Assembly: GCA_021806885.1 (NCBI GenBank) | Contig: JAKAPT010000004.1 | Coordinates: forward strand, 1-49,662 | Reading direction: 5' to 3' | Source of the DNA: a bacterium | Lineage (GTDB): Bacteria; SZUA-79; Acidulodesulfobacterales; Acidulodesulfobacteraceae | DNA: 49,662 nucleotides | Shown: positions 4,015 to 44,595 of the stretch, piece after piece | Layout of the letters: every line of letters starts with the position of its first letter | Numbering within the stretch: position 1 is the stretch's first letter | Made by a program: the position numbers and the translations under genes | The notes under the pieces: generated by a model | The model's input: only the letters and a program-made list of their open reading frames with translations | Told to the model about the DNA's origin: nothing | The model's database searches: none

Positions 4015-4440
4015 TCAATCCTGCGCCATCCTTCCGCCCTTTCCCGAAAGGGTCATGATGTTATTGAATATAAATATAAAAATGCCTGTAAACTCCGCTG
4101 CTGCAAACACAGACAGAGACAACACCTGTATCAACCTGTATGGGGCGTCATCCGAGACTATCCAGGTGAACGACATGCCCAGGAGTCCGATATTGGTAAG
4201 AAAAAATTGGATAGTTATTAATTTTTCGCTGTATAAATTAAACCCGCTAAACCTCGGGAGTACGTGATACCCCACCGAGTATATCATCATCGCCACGAAG
4301 CCGAGAAGAAGGAGGTGAACATGGGTTAAAAGGAGATATGACGCGGAATATGGGTAAATTGCCATGATAAGCCCTATGAAGGCGCCTAAAAGCAGGTATG
4401 TTAAAGAAGCGATCGTAAAATATTTGACTATGGGATTCAT
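4015..4440 (-). CDS. Small membrane protein resembling a fragment of heme-copper (cbb3-like) oxidase subunit I
   Basis: 141 aa, about 4 hydrophobic segments; THVHLLLLGFVAMMIYSVGYHVLPRF resembles the HVHxxLLGW...YHxxPR region of CcoN-type proteins. Confidence 0.6.
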   Translation of the reverse strand: MNPIVKYFTIASLTYLLLGAFIGLIMAIYPYSASYLLLTHVHLLLLGFVAMMIYSVGYHVLPRFSGFNLYSEKLITIQFFLTNIGLLGMSFTWIVSDDAPYRLIQVLSLSVFAAAEFTGIFIFIFNNIMTLSGKGGRMAQD

Positions 4441-37652: not shown

Positions 37653-38066
37653 ATGGATGGAAAAGCGAACATTCTCCACAGATTTATAGCAAAGGCCATA
37701 GATTTGCTTATTTTTGGTTTTTTGAGCGAGATTTTTTATCCGTTTGGGATATTAGCCGGCCTGCTCTACATTTTGATATCAGACGGATTTTTTAACGGCC
37801 AAAGCTTAGGCAAAAAACTTATAGGATTAAGGGTTATTGATGTTCCAGGGGGAAACAAAATAGAATTTAAGGAATCGATAATAAGAAACTTCTTGCTTGC
37901 GTTAGCGCTTTCATTTTCCCTTATACCCTTTATAGGTTACTTTCTTCTTTTTACCGCGGGGCTTTTTATTTACGGGTTTGAGATATATCTAATCATAAAA
38001 AACCCCGAGGGGGACCGCCTGGGAGACAGGTTTGCCTATACAAGGGTGATTGATGTCAAAAAATAG
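37653..38066 (+). CDS. RDD family membrane protein
   Basis: HRFIAKAIDLLIFGF...DGFFNGQSLGKKLIGLRVIDVPGG...RNFLLALALS...EGDRLGDRFAYTRVID. Confidence 0.88.
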   Translation: MDGKANILHRFIAKAIDLLIFGFLSEIFYPFGILAGLLYILISDGFFNGQSLGKKLIGLRVIDVPGGNKIEFKESIIRNFLLALALSFSLIPFIGYFLLFTAGLFIYGFEIYLIIKNPEGDRLGDRFAYTRVIDVKK

Positions 38067-40743
38067 CAAGGAAAAATCCTCGTTAAACATTGATGCAGAC
38101 CTCTTTCTAATAGACTCAAGTTCATATTTTTACAGGGCATATTACGCCCTGCCCCCGCTCACAAATTCAAAGGGGATGTCCACCGGGGCAAGCCTTGGCT
38201 ATACAAGGATGCTGATGAAATTGATCCGGCAGGCAGGGATAAAATACGGCGCCTGTCTTTTCGATTCCCACAAGAGCCTCAGAAAAGAATCTTACGCTGA
38301 ATACAAGGCAAACAGAAAAGGGATGCCGGAGGAGCTTCTCTCCCAGGTGGATTACCTGACCGCCATATCTCACTTCCTTGGTTTTAGCACGTTCAGGCTT
38401 GAGGGATACGAGGCGGATGATCTCATTGCCTATATAATTAGGAATGTTTCCGAAAAGGAGTCCGTCAAAACCTGCATAGTGAGCTCCGACAAGGATCTAA
38501 AGCAACTGCTTTCCCAAAACGTCCTGATATTCGATGCTTTGAAATCCAGGCTTATCACGGCCGGCGCTTTCGAAAATGAATATGATATAAAGCCCCAGCA
38601 ATTTTTATGCGTTCTTGCCCTCATGGGGGATGCCTCCGATAACATTCCCGGGGTGAAGGGCGTCGGGGAAAAGACCGCTCTCGACCTTATCCGGAGGTTT
38701 AAAACCATTGACGGGATATACGAGGGCATAAACGAGATAAAACAGCCAAAACTTAAGGAACTTCTCTTGAACCACAAGGAAGACGCCTATAAAAGCCTTG
38801 GGCTTGCTTCATTTTTTAAGGATGTGGATATAAACGGGGCCTATTTTACCCCGGACATGTTAAAAGCCGAAAAACCCCTTTCATATCATTTTAAACACCT
38901 TGAAGATTTTGCCCTCTCGGAGAGAAACGAAGAAGGTCTTTACAGGGTGTTCAAAGAGCTTGAATTCAATTCCCTTTTAAAAGAAATAAATCAGGATCCT
39001 CCTCCGGCCGGGATTCCGGCTGTCCATGATGACGTACTTTCAATTTATATAGATCTTGCCGGTAAAAAACCGGGAGAGGAAGAGGATCTGCTAAATTTTT
39101 CAGATACGCGGGACTTTCCAATTATCCATATGTACTCAAAAAGAACCGGCCTTATAGTTCAGAACATGAGGGAAATACTCGAAAACAAAGGTGCTTTAAA
39201 CCTTCTTCGCGATAAAGATGTAAAAAAAGCGGGCCTGTCCCTTGCCGGTATTAAGCGGGTTTTCGAGGAAGCAGGCGTAGAATTTAACGGCATGGATTTT
39301 GATTTAGCCATAGCCTCCTATCTTATAAATCCCATAAGGCACAGGCATGGGTTTAGCGATATTGAAGAGGAATTTTCCGGTGAAATTAATTTAAAAATCA
39401 AAGAAATGAAATCTGAAAGCGCCTTGCCCCCGGACAATTCGGACATTGCTTTCAAGGTCTTTTTATTATACGAAGTTCTCAAAAGAGAGATCGAAAAGGA
39501 TAAAAACCTGAATTTTTTGTTCTTTAATGTGGACGTGCCTCTCTCAGAGGTTTTGGCAGATATGGAAAGGATCGGGTTTTTAATTGACAAAGGAAGGCTC
39601 ATGTCTTTATCGGCGGAACTCGATTTTGAGGCAAAAAAACTTACCAATATTATCCATGAAATAGCAGGGAGGGCCTTTAATGTCAATTCCCCGAAGCAGC
39701 TTGCCGGGGTCATGTTTGAGGAGATGAAATTTAAAAGGGTAAAAAAAGAAAGTACCGACATAGACGTACTATCAACGCTTAAATCCGAGTTTGAAGCCCT
39801 CTTAAAAACGACGGATGATAAGGAAATTAAAAAGTATCTGCTGTTTCTCGAGAGTCTTATATCATATAGAAACAAGGTTAAGTTAAAAACCTCCTTTACA
39901 GATATCCTTCTCAGGGAGGCCGACAATAAGGGAAGGGTTCATACGTCTTTTTCCCAGGTTACGACCTCGACCGGCAGGCTCGCGAGCCAGAACCCGAACC
40001 TTCAGAATATCCCTGTTTCAGGGGTTGACGGGCTCAAGATAAGGCAATCTTTTATCTCAAAGGAGGGCTCCCTTTTGCTTTCCGCGGATTATTCCCAGAT
40101 AGATTTAAGGATCATAGCCTCTATTTCCGGGGATAAAGCTCTCATTAAGAGCTTTCTGGAAAATGAGGATATACACTCCCGCACCGCCTCGGAAATCTTT
40201 GGCGTGGGAATTGAAGACGTCGATCCTTCCATGAGGAGAAAGGCAAAGGTAATAAATTTTGGAATAATTTACGGAATGAGCCCTTACGGCCTTTCTAAAG
40301 AGCTTGGAATTTCAGCGGAGGAAGGAAAAACTTATATAGACAGATTTTTCCAGAACCATCCTTATATAAAGGAATACATGGATAAGGCCATGAAGGAAGC
40401 GAGGGCCTTCGGATACGTAAGGACGGCATTTGGAAGAAAATGCTTTATTCCCTATTTTGCCGAAAGGGCGGCTATTAATGCCCCCATTCAGGGGACCGCG
40501 GCCGATATTATAAAAATTGCCATGGTAAATATACACAGGGCCATTAAAAGCGACTCCTCGATGGATGCGGGGGCAAAAATGATCCTTCAGGTTCACGACG
40601 AGTTAATATTTGAAGTAAAAGAAGAATTGATACCCCCGCTTAAAGACATCGTTAGAACCCATATGACCGACAAGGCTCTTCTTAAGGATGTTCCCCTCAT
40701 TATAAATATCGGGACAGGAAAAAACTGGGCCGATGCACACTAG
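38053..40743 (+). CDS. polA: DNA polymerase I (5'-3' exonuclease + polymerase; proofreading domain degenerate)
   Basis: LFLIDSSSYFYRAYYALPPLTNSKGMSTGASLGYTRML, GDASDNIPGVKGVGEKTA; polymerase motifs TTSTGRLASQNPNLQNIP, LLSADYSQIDLRIIA, RRKAKVINFGIIYGMSPYGLS, LQVHDELIFEV. Confidence 0.97.
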   Translation: MSKNSKEKSSLNIDADLFLIDSSSYFYRAYYALPPLTNSKGMSTGASLGYTRMLMKLIRQAGIKYGACLFDSHKSLRKESYAEYKANRKGMPEELLSQVDYLTAISHFLGFSTFRLEGYEADDLIAYIIRNVSEKESVKTCIVSSDKDLKQLLSQNVLIFDALKSRLITAGAFENEYDIKPQQFLCVLALMGDASDNIPGVKGVGEKTALDLIRRFKTIDGIYEGINEIKQPKLKELLLNHKEDAYKSLGLASFFKDVDINGAYFTPDMLKAEKPLSYHFKHLEDFALSERNEEGLYRVFKELEFNSLLKEINQDPPPAGIPAVHDDVLSIYIDLAGKKPGEEEDLLNFSDTRDFPIIHMYSKRTGLIVQNMREILENKGALNLLRDKDVKKAGLSLAGIKRVFEEAGVEFNGMDFDLAIASYLINPIRHRHGFSDIEEEFSGEINLKIKEMKSESALPPDNSDIAFKVFLLYEVLKREIEKDKNLNFLFFNVDVPLSEVLADMERIGFLIDKGRLMSLSAELDFEAKKLTNIIHEIAGRAFNVNSPKQLAGVMFEEMKFKRVKKESTDIDVLSTLKSEFEALLKTTDDKEIKKYLLFLESLISYRNKVKLKTSFTDILLREADNKGRVHTSFSQVTTSTGRLASQNPNLQNIPVSGVDGLKIRQSFISKEGSLLLSADYSQIDLRIIASISGDKALIKSFLENEDIHSRTASEIFGVGIEDVDPSMRRKAKVINFGIIYGMSPYGLSKELGISAEEGKTYIDRFFQNHPYIKEYMDKAMKEARAFGYVRTAFGRKCFIPYFAERAAINAPIQGTAADIIKIAMVNIHRAIKSDSSMDAGAKMILQVHDELIFEVKEELIPPLKDIVRTHMTDKALLKDVPLIINIGTGKNWADAH

Positions 40744-40766: not shown

Positions 40767-40795
40767 TTGACATTTATTTGTTTATGCGATATATA
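40767..40795 (+). promoter_or_regulatory. Sigma70-type promoter candidate for the orphan gene at 40839
   Basis: TTGACA (40767-40772), 17-bp spacer, TATATA (40790-40795). Confidence 0.6.
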
Positions 40796-40818
40796 GATAA
40801 ATAAGATTAAATTTATCT
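40795..40818. promoter_or_regulatory. 8-bp inverted repeat overlapping the likely transcription start (candidate operator)
   Basis: agataaat (40795-40802) / atttatct (40811-40818). Confidence 0.35.
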
Positions 40819-40838
40819 TAATTAAATACGGGGGTCGC

Positions 40839-41297
40839 ATGAAGAATTGTTTAGAAAGCAATTTAAGCGAAATAAAAGAGGTAATTCTGGCAGATTCGGG
40901 AAAAAGGTCCTATGATTTTTCATTGAATGATTTGATAAAAATATCCTATCTGATTTTAAAAGAATGTCCTTCAAGCAATCAAATTGCCGAGCCGTTCAAG
41001 AGAAAAGCGAAAGAAATGAAGGTTGAGAACAATAAAAACGTGGATAAAGAGGATATCGGGGATATTAATTTTATACCCGGGAGCGGGATTATTGCAAAAT
41101 ATTTAAATTCAAGGATTTTATTTGGAAGCGGCGGTTTTTTGCAAAAAAACGGGGTTGAAATTGACAGTGTTATTAAAAATAAGGCGTTAAAATTTGAAAA
41201 AAGCGGCCTTAAAGTCTTTTTTTTAGGAATAGAGAACTATCTTAAGTGCTTTTTTGTTATTGAAGGGGCCGCACAAGAAGCTGTTTTGACGGCATAA
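40839..41297 (+). CDS. Orphan protein resembling an isolated P1B-type ATPase nucleotide-binding (N) domain
   Basis: LNDLIKISYLILKECPSSNQIAEPFKRKAKEM...INFIPGSGIIAKYLNSRILFGSGGFLQKNGVEIDS...ALKFEKSGLKVFFLGIENYLKCFFVIEG parallels CopA-type ...ELLxLAASLExxSEHPLAxAIVxxA...FxxxxGxGVxAxVdGxxVLVGNxxLMxxxGI...GKTVVxVAxDGxLxGxIA; no DKTGT, no TM helices. Confidence 0.65.
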   Translation: MKNCLESNLSEIKEVILADSGKRSYDFSLNDLIKISYLILKECPSSNQIAEPFKRKAKEMKVENNKNVDKEDIGDINFIPGSGIIAKYLNSRILFGSGGFLQKNGVEIDSVIKNKALKFEKSGLKVFFLGIENYLKCFFVIEGAAQEAVLTA

Positions 41298-41409
41298 ACC
41301 AACCTTTTTTTGCGGATAGTTTTATTCTTCGTATGTTTAAAGCTCTTAATAAGATGGCGGCCAAGGCTGGGATCGCAACGAAGGGACATACCGCGACCCT
41401 TCCGTAAAT

Positions 41410-41437
41410 TTGACATTTTGTAAATCGGGTATATTCT
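41410..41437 (+). promoter_or_regulatory. Candidate sigma70 promoter upstream of cydA
   Basis: TTGACA at 41410-41415 followed by AT-rich TATATT/TATTCT around 41430-41437; spacing not ideal. Confidence 0.35.
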
Positions 41438-41550: not shown

Positions 41551-42969
41551 ATGAATGGTTTGGCTTTATTCTTAGCTAGATTCCAGTTTGGAATCACCGC
41601 TTTTTTTCATTTCTTTTTCCCTCCCCTTACAATAGGGCTTGGAACCCTTCTTGTCATTATGGAGGGTATTTATGTTTTCTCGAAGAAAGAAGAGTATCTC
41701 AGGATGACCAGGTTTTTCATGAGGCTCTTCGCGATTAATTTTGTGGTCGGCGTGGCCGCGGGAATTGTTTTAGAATTCGAGTTCGGAACGAACTGGTCCC
41801 AGTATTCCGCGTACGTGGGCAAGATATTCGGGTCTCCCCTGGCGATTGAAGGCCTGTTTGCTTTTTTTATGGAATCCGTCTTCGTCGGGGTCATGCTCCT
41901 CGGATGGAAAAGGCTTTCCACGGGCGCCCACTGGGTTTCGACAATACTGAACGCCCTTGGCTCACCCCTGTCGGCGGTCTGGATACTGGTAGCAAATTCC
42001 TGGATGCAGACCCCTGCCGGTTACAGCATAGGCAAAGACGGCATTCCTATTATGACGCATTTCTGGCGCGTCGTTTTCAATCCGTATTTTTTATATGAAT
42101 TTTTACACGTGGTTATCGGTTCATGGGAGTACGGCGCATTTTTCATGGCCGGGGTTGCGGCCTGGTTTTTAATTAAGAACAACAAAGACATCGTAATGAG
42201 AAAGGCCCTGACCATTGCGGTGATAGCCGCTGTCATGGTCGCTGTTGGACAGATTGTTCTTGGTGATTTAAGCGCAAGGGGTGTGGTTCGATACCAGCCT
42301 ACGAAGCTTGCCATGATGGAGGCGCTGTGGCATTCCCAGAAATACGCGCCGGAGACCCTCGTAGCTTTTCCGAACAATAAAACCCAGTCCAACGGGCCGT
42401 CGGTAGGTATTCCCGGCGCCCTGAGCATGCTCTCTTATATGAATCCGTCTGCCAGGGTCATGGGTTTCGACAGCTCGATAAAATATGTAAACCAAAAATA
42501 CGACTTGAAACTCACGCCTTCCATGTTTCCTCCCGTATGGATAGTATTCTGGTCATTTCACATAATGATGTATCTTGGCTTTTATTTCGCGGTCTTAATG
42601 ATAATCGCGTTGATTTTCCTTTTTAACGGGAAACTGCTTGAAAGCCGTAAATTACTTAATGTATTGTGGTATTCGGCTTTTCTTCCGCTCCTTGCACTGG
42701 AGCTCGGGTGGTTTACGACCGAGATAGGCAGGCAGCCTTTTGCCGTTTACGGGCTTCTCACCACGGCCAATTCGGTTTCTCCCAATGTAAGCGACCTGGA
42801 AGTTGTCCTTTCCACGCTAATGTTTATTTTAATTTATATCGCGCTGGCGTGGCTGGCCATTTTCCTTTTTATGAAAGAGATGAGGGAAAGGGTCTCCGGC
42901 AAAGATGAAATAAGCGGGGTCATCACTGCCAGAAACGAAGCGGTAACCGGTAAGGAGGTGCAATCATGA
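41551..42969 (+). CDS. cydA: Cytochrome bd-type ubiquinol oxidase subunit I
   Basis: LARFQFGITAFFHFFFPPLTIGLGTLLVIMEG, PLAIEGLFAFFMESVFVGVMLLGW, YEFLHVVIGSWEYGAFFMAG, QPTKLAMMEALW, GRQPFAVYGLL. AAGGAGG before ATG. Confidence 0.95.
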   Translation: MNGLALFLARFQFGITAFFHFFFPPLTIGLGTLLVIMEGIYVFSKKEEYLRMTRFFMRLFAINFVVGVAAGIVLEFEFGTNWSQYSAYVGKIFGSPLAIEGLFAFFMESVFVGVMLLGWKRLSTGAHWVSTILNALGSPLSAVWILVANSWMQTPAGYSIGKDGIPIMTHFWRVVFNPYFLYEFLHVVIGSWEYGAFFMAGVAAWFLIKNNKDIVMRKALTIAVIAAVMVAVGQIVLGDLSARGVVRYQPTKLAMMEALWHSQKYAPETLVAFPNNKTQSNGPSVGIPGALSMLSYMNPSARVMGFDSSIKYVNQKYDLKLTPSMFPPVWIVFWSFHIMMYLGFYFAVLMIIALIFLFNGKLLESRKLLNVLWYSAFLPLLALELGWFTTEIGRQPFAVYGLLTTANSVSPNVSDLEVVLSTLMFILIYIALAWLAIFLFMKEMRERVSGKDEISGVITARNEAVTGKEVQS

Positions 42970-43988
42970 GCCTGGATTTAAATATATTGTGGTTTATCCT
43001 CGTAGGGGTACTTATATTGGGATGGTCCGTTATGGACGGATTCGACTATGGAGTAGGAGGCCTTCTCGGGTTCATAGCTAAAAACGATTCCGAAAGAAGA
43101 TATGTAATAAATTCCATCGGTCCGGTCTGGGAAGGCAACCAGGTGTGGCTTGTACTTGGAGGCGGAGCCGTTTTCGCGGCTTTTCCATTAGTGTATGCGT
43201 CTGTTTTCAGCGGATTTTACCTTGCCTTTATGCTTGTACTATGGCTAATAATATTCAGGGCTATTTCCTTTGAGTTCAGAAGCAGGGTCTCAAGCACTTC
43301 GTGGAGGGGATTCTGGGACGCGTCCATTACCGTTACGGGCCTGGGCCTTTCCCTGCTTTTTGGCGTCGCGCTGGCCAACATAATCATGGGAATACCTTTA
43401 AACGCGCAACATGTCGATTATCAGTCCCTTTTTAGCCTTCTGAACATTTTCGCTATCGTAGGAGGGCTTGTTTCGCTTTCAATGTTCATGATGCACGGTA
43501 GCGCATACCTGGTAATGAGAGCTGAGGGAGAAATCCAGGAAAGGGCGAGGAGCTTCGCGTTAGCGTTCGGGTACGCTTTTGTTGTATTTACCGTGGTTTT
43601 CCTTTTAATTTCTCCTGTTTTCGCTCCAAGGCTGTTAGGCAATAGTTTTGGGATTGCGGGAGACATTGTTCCGGTTATAATGCTTATAGGCGGCGCGGGG
43701 GTCATTCTAACCGCGAAATCCAGGAGCGAATTTTTGCCGTTTATTTTTTCCGTAATCGGAATAATAGGAGCGGTCATAAGCATTGCCGCAAGCCTTTTCC
43801 CTGATTTAGTTCCATCATCGATAAACCAGGGATACAGCCTTAATATTTACAATGCGGCATCCAATCCGCACACCCTTTTCGTGATGCTTATAGCGGTCCT
43901 TTTCGGGCTTCCTCTTGTTCTGATATATTTGTTTTATGCTTATATAAAATTTGGCTTAAAGGTAAAGATGGATGACAGCAGTTATTAG
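42966..43988 (+). CDS. cydB: Cytochrome bd-type oxidase subunit II (4-bp overlap with cydA)
   Basis: LNILWFILVGVLILGWSVMDGFDYGVGGLLGF, GPVWEGNQVWLVLGGGAVFAAFPLVYA, RAISFEFRSR. Confidence 0.95.
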   Translation: MSLDLNILWFILVGVLILGWSVMDGFDYGVGGLLGFIAKNDSERRYVINSIGPVWEGNQVWLVLGGGAVFAAFPLVYASVFSGFYLAFMLVLWLIIFRAISFEFRSRVSSTSWRGFWDASITVTGLGLSLLFGVALANIIMGIPLNAQHVDYQSLFSLLNIFAIVGGLVSLSMFMMHGSAYLVMRAEGEIQERARSFALAFGYAFVVFTVVFLLISPVFAPRLLGNSFGIAGDIVPVIMLIGGAGVILTAKSRSEFLPFIFSVIGIIGAVISIAASLFPDLVPSSINQGYSLNIYNAASNPHTLFVMLIAVLFGLPLVLIYLFYAYIKFGLKVKMDDSSY

Positions 43989-44190: not shown

Positions 44191-44595
44191 ATGAAGATTT
44201 CAAGGGCGAGCGATTATGCCATAAGGGGGCTTGTGCATATGGCTGAAAAGCCTGAAGGAACGATAAGTTATATAAAGGATATAGCAAAAAAAACCGAGGT
44301 CCCCGCCTCTTTTTTATCCAAGATATTTCAGACTCTCTCAAAGGCAGGATTCGTAAACTCTTTTATAGGGACAAAGGGCGGGTTTTCATTGAATATTCCG
44401 CCGGAAAAGATTACAATTAAAATGGTTATAGAGGCCGTGGACGGGCCTCTTGCCTTGAACAGGTGCATTGCCAACAAGACCTTTTGCTCGCGCAGTTCGC
44501 ACTGCGAGGTGCATTTCATGTGGCGCGAAATCCAGAAAATGCTTAGTTCGGCCCTGAGTTCCCGCACGATCGCGGAATTCGCGCAGACAGAATAA
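44191..44595 (+). CDS. Rrf2-family transcriptional regulator, putative Fe-S sensor
   Basis: MKISRASDYAIRGLVHMAEKP...IAKKTEVPASFLSKIFQTLSKAGFVNSFIGTKGGFSLNIPPEKITIKMVIEAVDGP; CIANKTFCSRSSHC = C-x6-C-x5-C. Confidence 0.93.
   Translation: MKISRASDYAIRGLVHMAEKPEGTISYIKDIAKKTEVPASFLSKIFQTLSKAGFVNSFIGTKGGFSLNIPPEKITIKMVIEAVDGPLALNRCIANKTFCSRSSHCEVHFMWREIQKMLSSALSSRTIAEFAQTE

Follow-up and report, generated by a model that had tools for sequence, protein, structure and literature searches.

The window, which is the whole 49,662-nucleotide stretch of bacterial DNA analysed here, carries the gene run uroS, two radical SAM genes, RDD, polA, a 152-residue open reading frame (ORF), cydA, cydB and rrf2. 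The ORF lies on the forward strand, opens with an ATG and closes with a TAA. The features of its surroundings are the following:

38050-40743, forward strand: polA, the left-hand anchor of the locus, 61-66% identical to the polA genes of G003 and G007.
40767-40795, forward strand: promoter P1 (TTGACA-17-TATATA), aligned with the promoters that precede ccoN and cydA in relatives.
40802-40820, forward strand: palindrome TAAGATTAAATTTATCTTA, a probable operator, single copy in the window and conserved in relatives.
40839-41297, forward strand: the 152-residue ORF, assigned as a ccoI remnant corresponding to the pump N-domain from homology, the N-domain tree, the structural model and Foldseek.
41298-41383, forward strand: a possible out-of-frame remnant of the ccoI P domain, suggested by frameshift-tolerant alignment.
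41410-41437, forward strand: a promoter-like site before cydA, by consensus match only.
41551-42969, forward strand: cydA, with a cytochrome bd match and 76% identity to the cydA of G003.
42966-43988, forward strand: cydB, with an NCBIfam cydB match.
44191-44595, forward strand: an Rrf2-family regulator gene beside cydB (PF02082, E 1e-33; TIGR00738), with the same neighbour in G003 and G016.

Searches of Pfam and NCBIfam with the 152-residue product returned zero matches, even at E = 5. Its best matches among the proteins of 61 genomes are the N-domains of full pumps in G003 (E 7.8e-23, 45% identity), G007 (E 1.7e-22, 38% identity) and G011 (E 1.0e-19, 38% identity), all three in open frames of 870-880 residues. 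The top phmmer sequence match in the PDB is the N-domain of HMA6/PAA1 (5lbd, E 0.002). Judged by these sequence comparisons, the homology of the ORF to P1B N-domains exceeds chance. The AlphaFold model (pLDDT 84, pTM 0.80), for which a 22-member alignment served as input, is matched by Foldseek to the N-domains of CopB, CopA, ATP7B and HMA6 at E 4e-8 to 4e-7, an agreement in fold that is not independent of homology, since the model was built with the family alignment. The product is thus predicted to have the P1B N-domain fold.

Laid against a full pump, the ORF starts right after (or at) the lost DKTGT phosphorylation loop, which the parent pumps possess, and ends where the P domain starts. 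Its product would be the soluble N-domain alone, as transmembrane helices, the CPC motif and the actuator domain are also missing, and it is predicted to be unable to pump or to become phosphorylated. The flanks of the ORF contain no pieces of the transmembrane-helix/CPC region or of the actuator domain. The initial annotation, made from the DNA letters and their translations, had described an N-domain of a P1B pump lacking the DKTGT loop, the actuator domain and the membrane helices; this description was confirmed by the matches to pump N-domains, by the tree described below and by the AlphaFold and Foldseek comparison that it had proposed. It had also proposed a domain detached from its pump and repurposed, as a metal or nucleotide sensor or as an assembly partner of the bd oxidase. 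This second proposal is not supported: a stand-alone copy of the N-domain is found in one of the 30 family genomes, the window genome itself (G000), and cydAB has no such separate N-domain next to it elsewhere in the family. Candidate “stand-alone homologues” of 144 residues in sister genomes proved to be ribosomal protein L15, located inside the ribosomal-protein operon at the three loci that were read. Scans of GTDB contigs, one with the ORF and one with polA, found no congener, and literature searches for natural stand-alone N-domains gave nothing pertinent.

Five columns are invariant across the 22 N-domains (E42, A50, G81, G83 and G96) and all are retained in the ORF, among them the nucleotide-site glutamate (E42) and the Gly-x-Gly motif (G81, G83). 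At the SEHP block the ORF reads SSNQ/SNQI and His-Pro is missing, as had been observed at the outset. In G003, G007 and G011 the complete CcoI pumps carry DDRI, SDRI and ADRI, respectively, at this block, with Asp-Arg and no His-Pro. The loss therefore predates the ORF and is no sign of repurposing. The pump genes with Asp-Arg in this position are L025:9257-11866, L026:9094-11670 and L027:2909-5503; a FixI-like pump on pSymA of S. meliloti, unannotated in its record and identified by motif, has SRHP there. In all likelihood the ORF product does not serve as a nucleotide-binding protein.

The parent pump can be named from its surroundings. Two of the three nearest pumps were tested for domains and carry an HMA, an E1-E2 ATPase and a HAD hydrolase domain, and family matches place the pumps of G003, G007 and G011 inside ccoN-ccoO/P-ccoI-ccoG clusters. 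Each has a ccoN/ccoO-ccoP-like pair on one side and a ccoG-like gene on the other, which identifies it as the CcoI (FixI) pump of a cbb3 cluster, a CopA2-type P1B-ATPase of cbb3 oxidase biogenesis with a function described in PMC8475189. In the N-domain tree, the ORF and the three CcoI sequences form one clade with support of 100/99, separate from the family's remaining P1B pumps, two of which belong to the window genome. The homologues of the ORF are full CcoI pumps and the ORF is a truncated piece of such a pump, an outcome that the initial annotation had named as speaking against its proposal of a repurposed domain. The CcoI N-domains show a star-like divergence: two genomes from a single genus, with ccoN genes that are 91% identical, share just 56-57% identity in this domain.

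The position of the ORF is that of the cbb3 cluster in relatives. In G003 the run from uroS to polA is the same as in the window; ccoN begins 453 bp after polA and is followed by ccoO/P, ccoI, ccoG and other genes, and cydA-cydB-rrf2 lies ~20 kb beyond polA. G007 has the same polA-ccoN-ccoO/P-ccoI-ccoG order, the distance from polA to ccoN being 438-453 bp in these two genomes. In the sister genus g6, polA and cydA are 172-555 bp apart wherever both adjoin on one contig, and four such intergenic stretches contain no pump sequence. No such ORF was found in the cydA neighbourhoods read in other family genomes, and the polA-cydA interval of G013 holds a 1.9-kb stretch of other sequence without cco pieces. 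In relatives (L025/L084, L087, L091-L094) the interval is variable, from ~20 kb with the cbb3 cluster and other genes (G003) through 1.9 kb (G013) to promoters only in most of g6. G000, which is 99.6% complete, lacks ccoN and any full-length COX1-family (heme-copper oxidase) protein, and a search of it for ccoG-like proteins, run without a positive control inside G000, found none. Because the ORF occupies the place of the relatives' cluster, and the rest of that cluster is absent from G000, we regard it as a piece of a deleted cco cluster, an origin that is well supported and nearly certain in our judgement. A separate 141-residue stand-alone protein, encoded at 4015-4440 on the reverse strand of the window, aligns with positions 305-400 of the model of COX1 (heme-copper oxidase subunit I) and contains the motif THVHLLLLGF; it is the sole COX1-family match in G000.

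The leader of the ORF is shared with both oxidase operons. P1 aligns with the promoter ahead of ccoN in G003, G011 and, in diverged form, G007, and with the one ahead of cydA in G016, G020, G024 and G026; the order polA, P1, palindrome is kept in an alignment of the window, the region before ccoN and the region before cydA in g6 genomes without ccoN. Palindromes of 19 bp of the TAAGATTAAATTTATCTTA type occur at L025:6694, L027:455, L091:4501, L091:7143, L092:4250, L093:3867 and L094:4160, and the one at L091:7143, in G016, stands in front of rrf2, the gene beside cydB. The palindrome is probably an Rrf2 operator that controls both terminal oxidases, the neighbouring Rrf2 protein being its presumed regulator. 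As a common cco/cyd leader, P1 has its own reason for conservation. The promoter on which the case against decay had partly been built is real and recurs in relatives, but it is the old promoter of the cbb3 operon. In G011, P1 is found twice, after polA, where the contig end cuts it, and before ccoN, with differing sequence (L027:1-587; L060); these two copies suggest a duplication or relocation of the cco cluster or of the leader alone.

Between the ORF and cydA there is a 253-bp spacer, which is non-repetitive in G000 save for short matches. Alignment of the sequence after the stop codon with the pump P domain sets RIVLF...ALNKMAAKAGI against KVVML...SGDNEEAVNYTASKAGI, with AVNYTASKAGI opposite ALNKMAAKAGI, and is collinear within 1 nt over 62. 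Under lenient frameshift penalties this extension was matched or beaten by 0-4 of 400 shuffles and by 0-13 of 400 other segments of the window; under strict penalties it is not significant. The alignment is suggestive of a pump gene that continues, broken by frameshifts, past the ORF stop. On the left, frameshift-tolerant extension of the homology beyond the ORF is weak, with 16 of 200 shuffles equally good.

The ORF is best explained as a gene relic, probably the N-domain of ccoI left behind by a deleted cbb3 cluster between polA and cydAB, and it probably has no protein function. A “late remnant” had been offered at first as an alternative, and it is now the reading best supported by the place of the ORF, its leader and the loss of the cluster. 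With the directions of gain and loss that we infer, a cbb3 cluster would once have stood between polA and cydAB. Deletions would have removed the stretch that runs from the ccoN leader approximately to the ccoI codons for DKTGT, as well as the stretch from the early P domain (or the ORF stop) to a point upstream of cydA. The leftover N-domain would then have been placed behind the old cco leader, with its promoter, its possible operator and a weak ribosome site (GGGGGT). Given this position, the ORF is probably transcribed, and perhaps translated, as the leader of the cydAB message.

Three observations speak against a relic: the open frame of 152 codons, the retention of the five invariant columns and the rejection of omega = 1. 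The intact frame, at first held against simple decay, stands as a point for that view, to be read with the saturation of synonymous sites. In neutral simulations at 0.1-0.2 substitutions per site the frame stays free of stops in ~1-12% of cases; such a frame being rare under neutral drift, a fairly recent deletion or some remaining constraint has to be assumed. The branch codon model rejects an omega of 1 for the ORF branch taken as a whole (lnL -1778.4 versus -1773.6, 4.9 log units), on a branch that includes time spent inside the pump and with synonymous sites saturated and branch lengths reaching their bounds. A model in which neutral drift follows evolution as a pump has a flat likelihood anywhere between 0 and ~0.9 neutral changes per codon. 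Counted over the sites that are identical in all three pumps, differences in the ORF amount to 41%, 25% and 44% at codon positions 1, 2 and 3, as compared with ~15-22%, 7-12% and 24-41% in the pump lineages; for control genes of the window lineage the values are 18, 10 and 51% (polA) and 15, 8 and 46% (cydA). The ratio of amino-acid-changing to third-position differences is 0.75 for the ORF, 0.34-0.60 for the pump lineages and 0.27 for polA, with third positions near saturation. These values suggest a relaxed amino-acid constraint on the ORF. In the protein tree its branch measures 2.23 versus ~0.9 for the pumps (~2.5x), and polA of the window lineage is similarly stretched, so that an excess of change in the ORF branch is not demonstrated.

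The rival that survives best, unlikely in our estimate, is a protein that still folds and has been retained, perhaps to modulate something near cytochrome bd in a way linked to adenine nucleotides or copper. The open frame, the confident N-domain model, the retained glutamate and Gly-x-Gly and the branch omega below 1 are all in keeping with it, as is the fact that the tail after the stop, if it is real pump sequence, has several frameshifts and the ORF none. However, the family has no second stand-alone homologue, and none lies by any other cydA; the nucleotide-contacting His-Pro had been lost beforehand; and differences at amino-acid-changing positions are almost as frequent as those at third positions, which are near saturation. 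We think it quite unlikely that the N-domain outlived its oxidase operon, is expressed from the old cco promoter and is under selection as a protein in its own right that acts alongside cytochrome bd. Alternatively, the peptide itself may be irrelevant, and any open frame translated in the stretch from P1 to cydAB would be favoured for keeping ribosomes on the message and avoiding polarity. An ORF with apparently relaxed amino-acid constraint, behind a promoter that directly precedes cydA in other genomes, would suit such a frame, but relatives manage without an ORF there and a second promoter-like site lies between the ORF and cydA, which makes this very improbable. A fragment brought from elsewhere, by horizontal transfer or as an assembly chimera, and placed beside cydAB by chance is hardly credible: the star-like divergence of CcoI N-domains within one genus (56-57%) could mean that cco clusters are mobile, but relatives have their resident cco cluster at exactly this position and behind the same leader, and the contig is unbroken, with synteny to the left and to the right.

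As a relic of ccoI, the ORF would mark the point at which a lineage that had both a cbb3 and a bd oxidase kept only the bd enzyme, and the scar of the deletion is still legible. It also calls for caution, as a relic can inherit a good promoter, an open frame and a sequence that gives a confident domain model. If selection does keep the domain, a P-type ATPase N-domain would here exist on its own in nature, which is rare.

Compared with CcoI/FixI, the ORF shares the N-domain sequence (38-45% identity), the place after polA and the leader, but is devoid of the metal-binding domain, the transmembrane helices, the actuator domain, the DKTGT loop and a complete P domain. Its predicted fold is like that of the isolated N-domain structures of CopA (2b8e, 2voy_J), HMA6 (5lbd) and ATP7A (2kmv). 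Whereas those structures are of constructs cut by experimenters, the split in the ORF is natural, and the SEHP histidine is missing. The ORF resembles the gene relics, or pseudogene fragments, of operon deletions in being a truncated part of a deleted operon, in its ancestral place and with its ancestral promoter, and it differs from them in that its frame is open across a whole structural domain.
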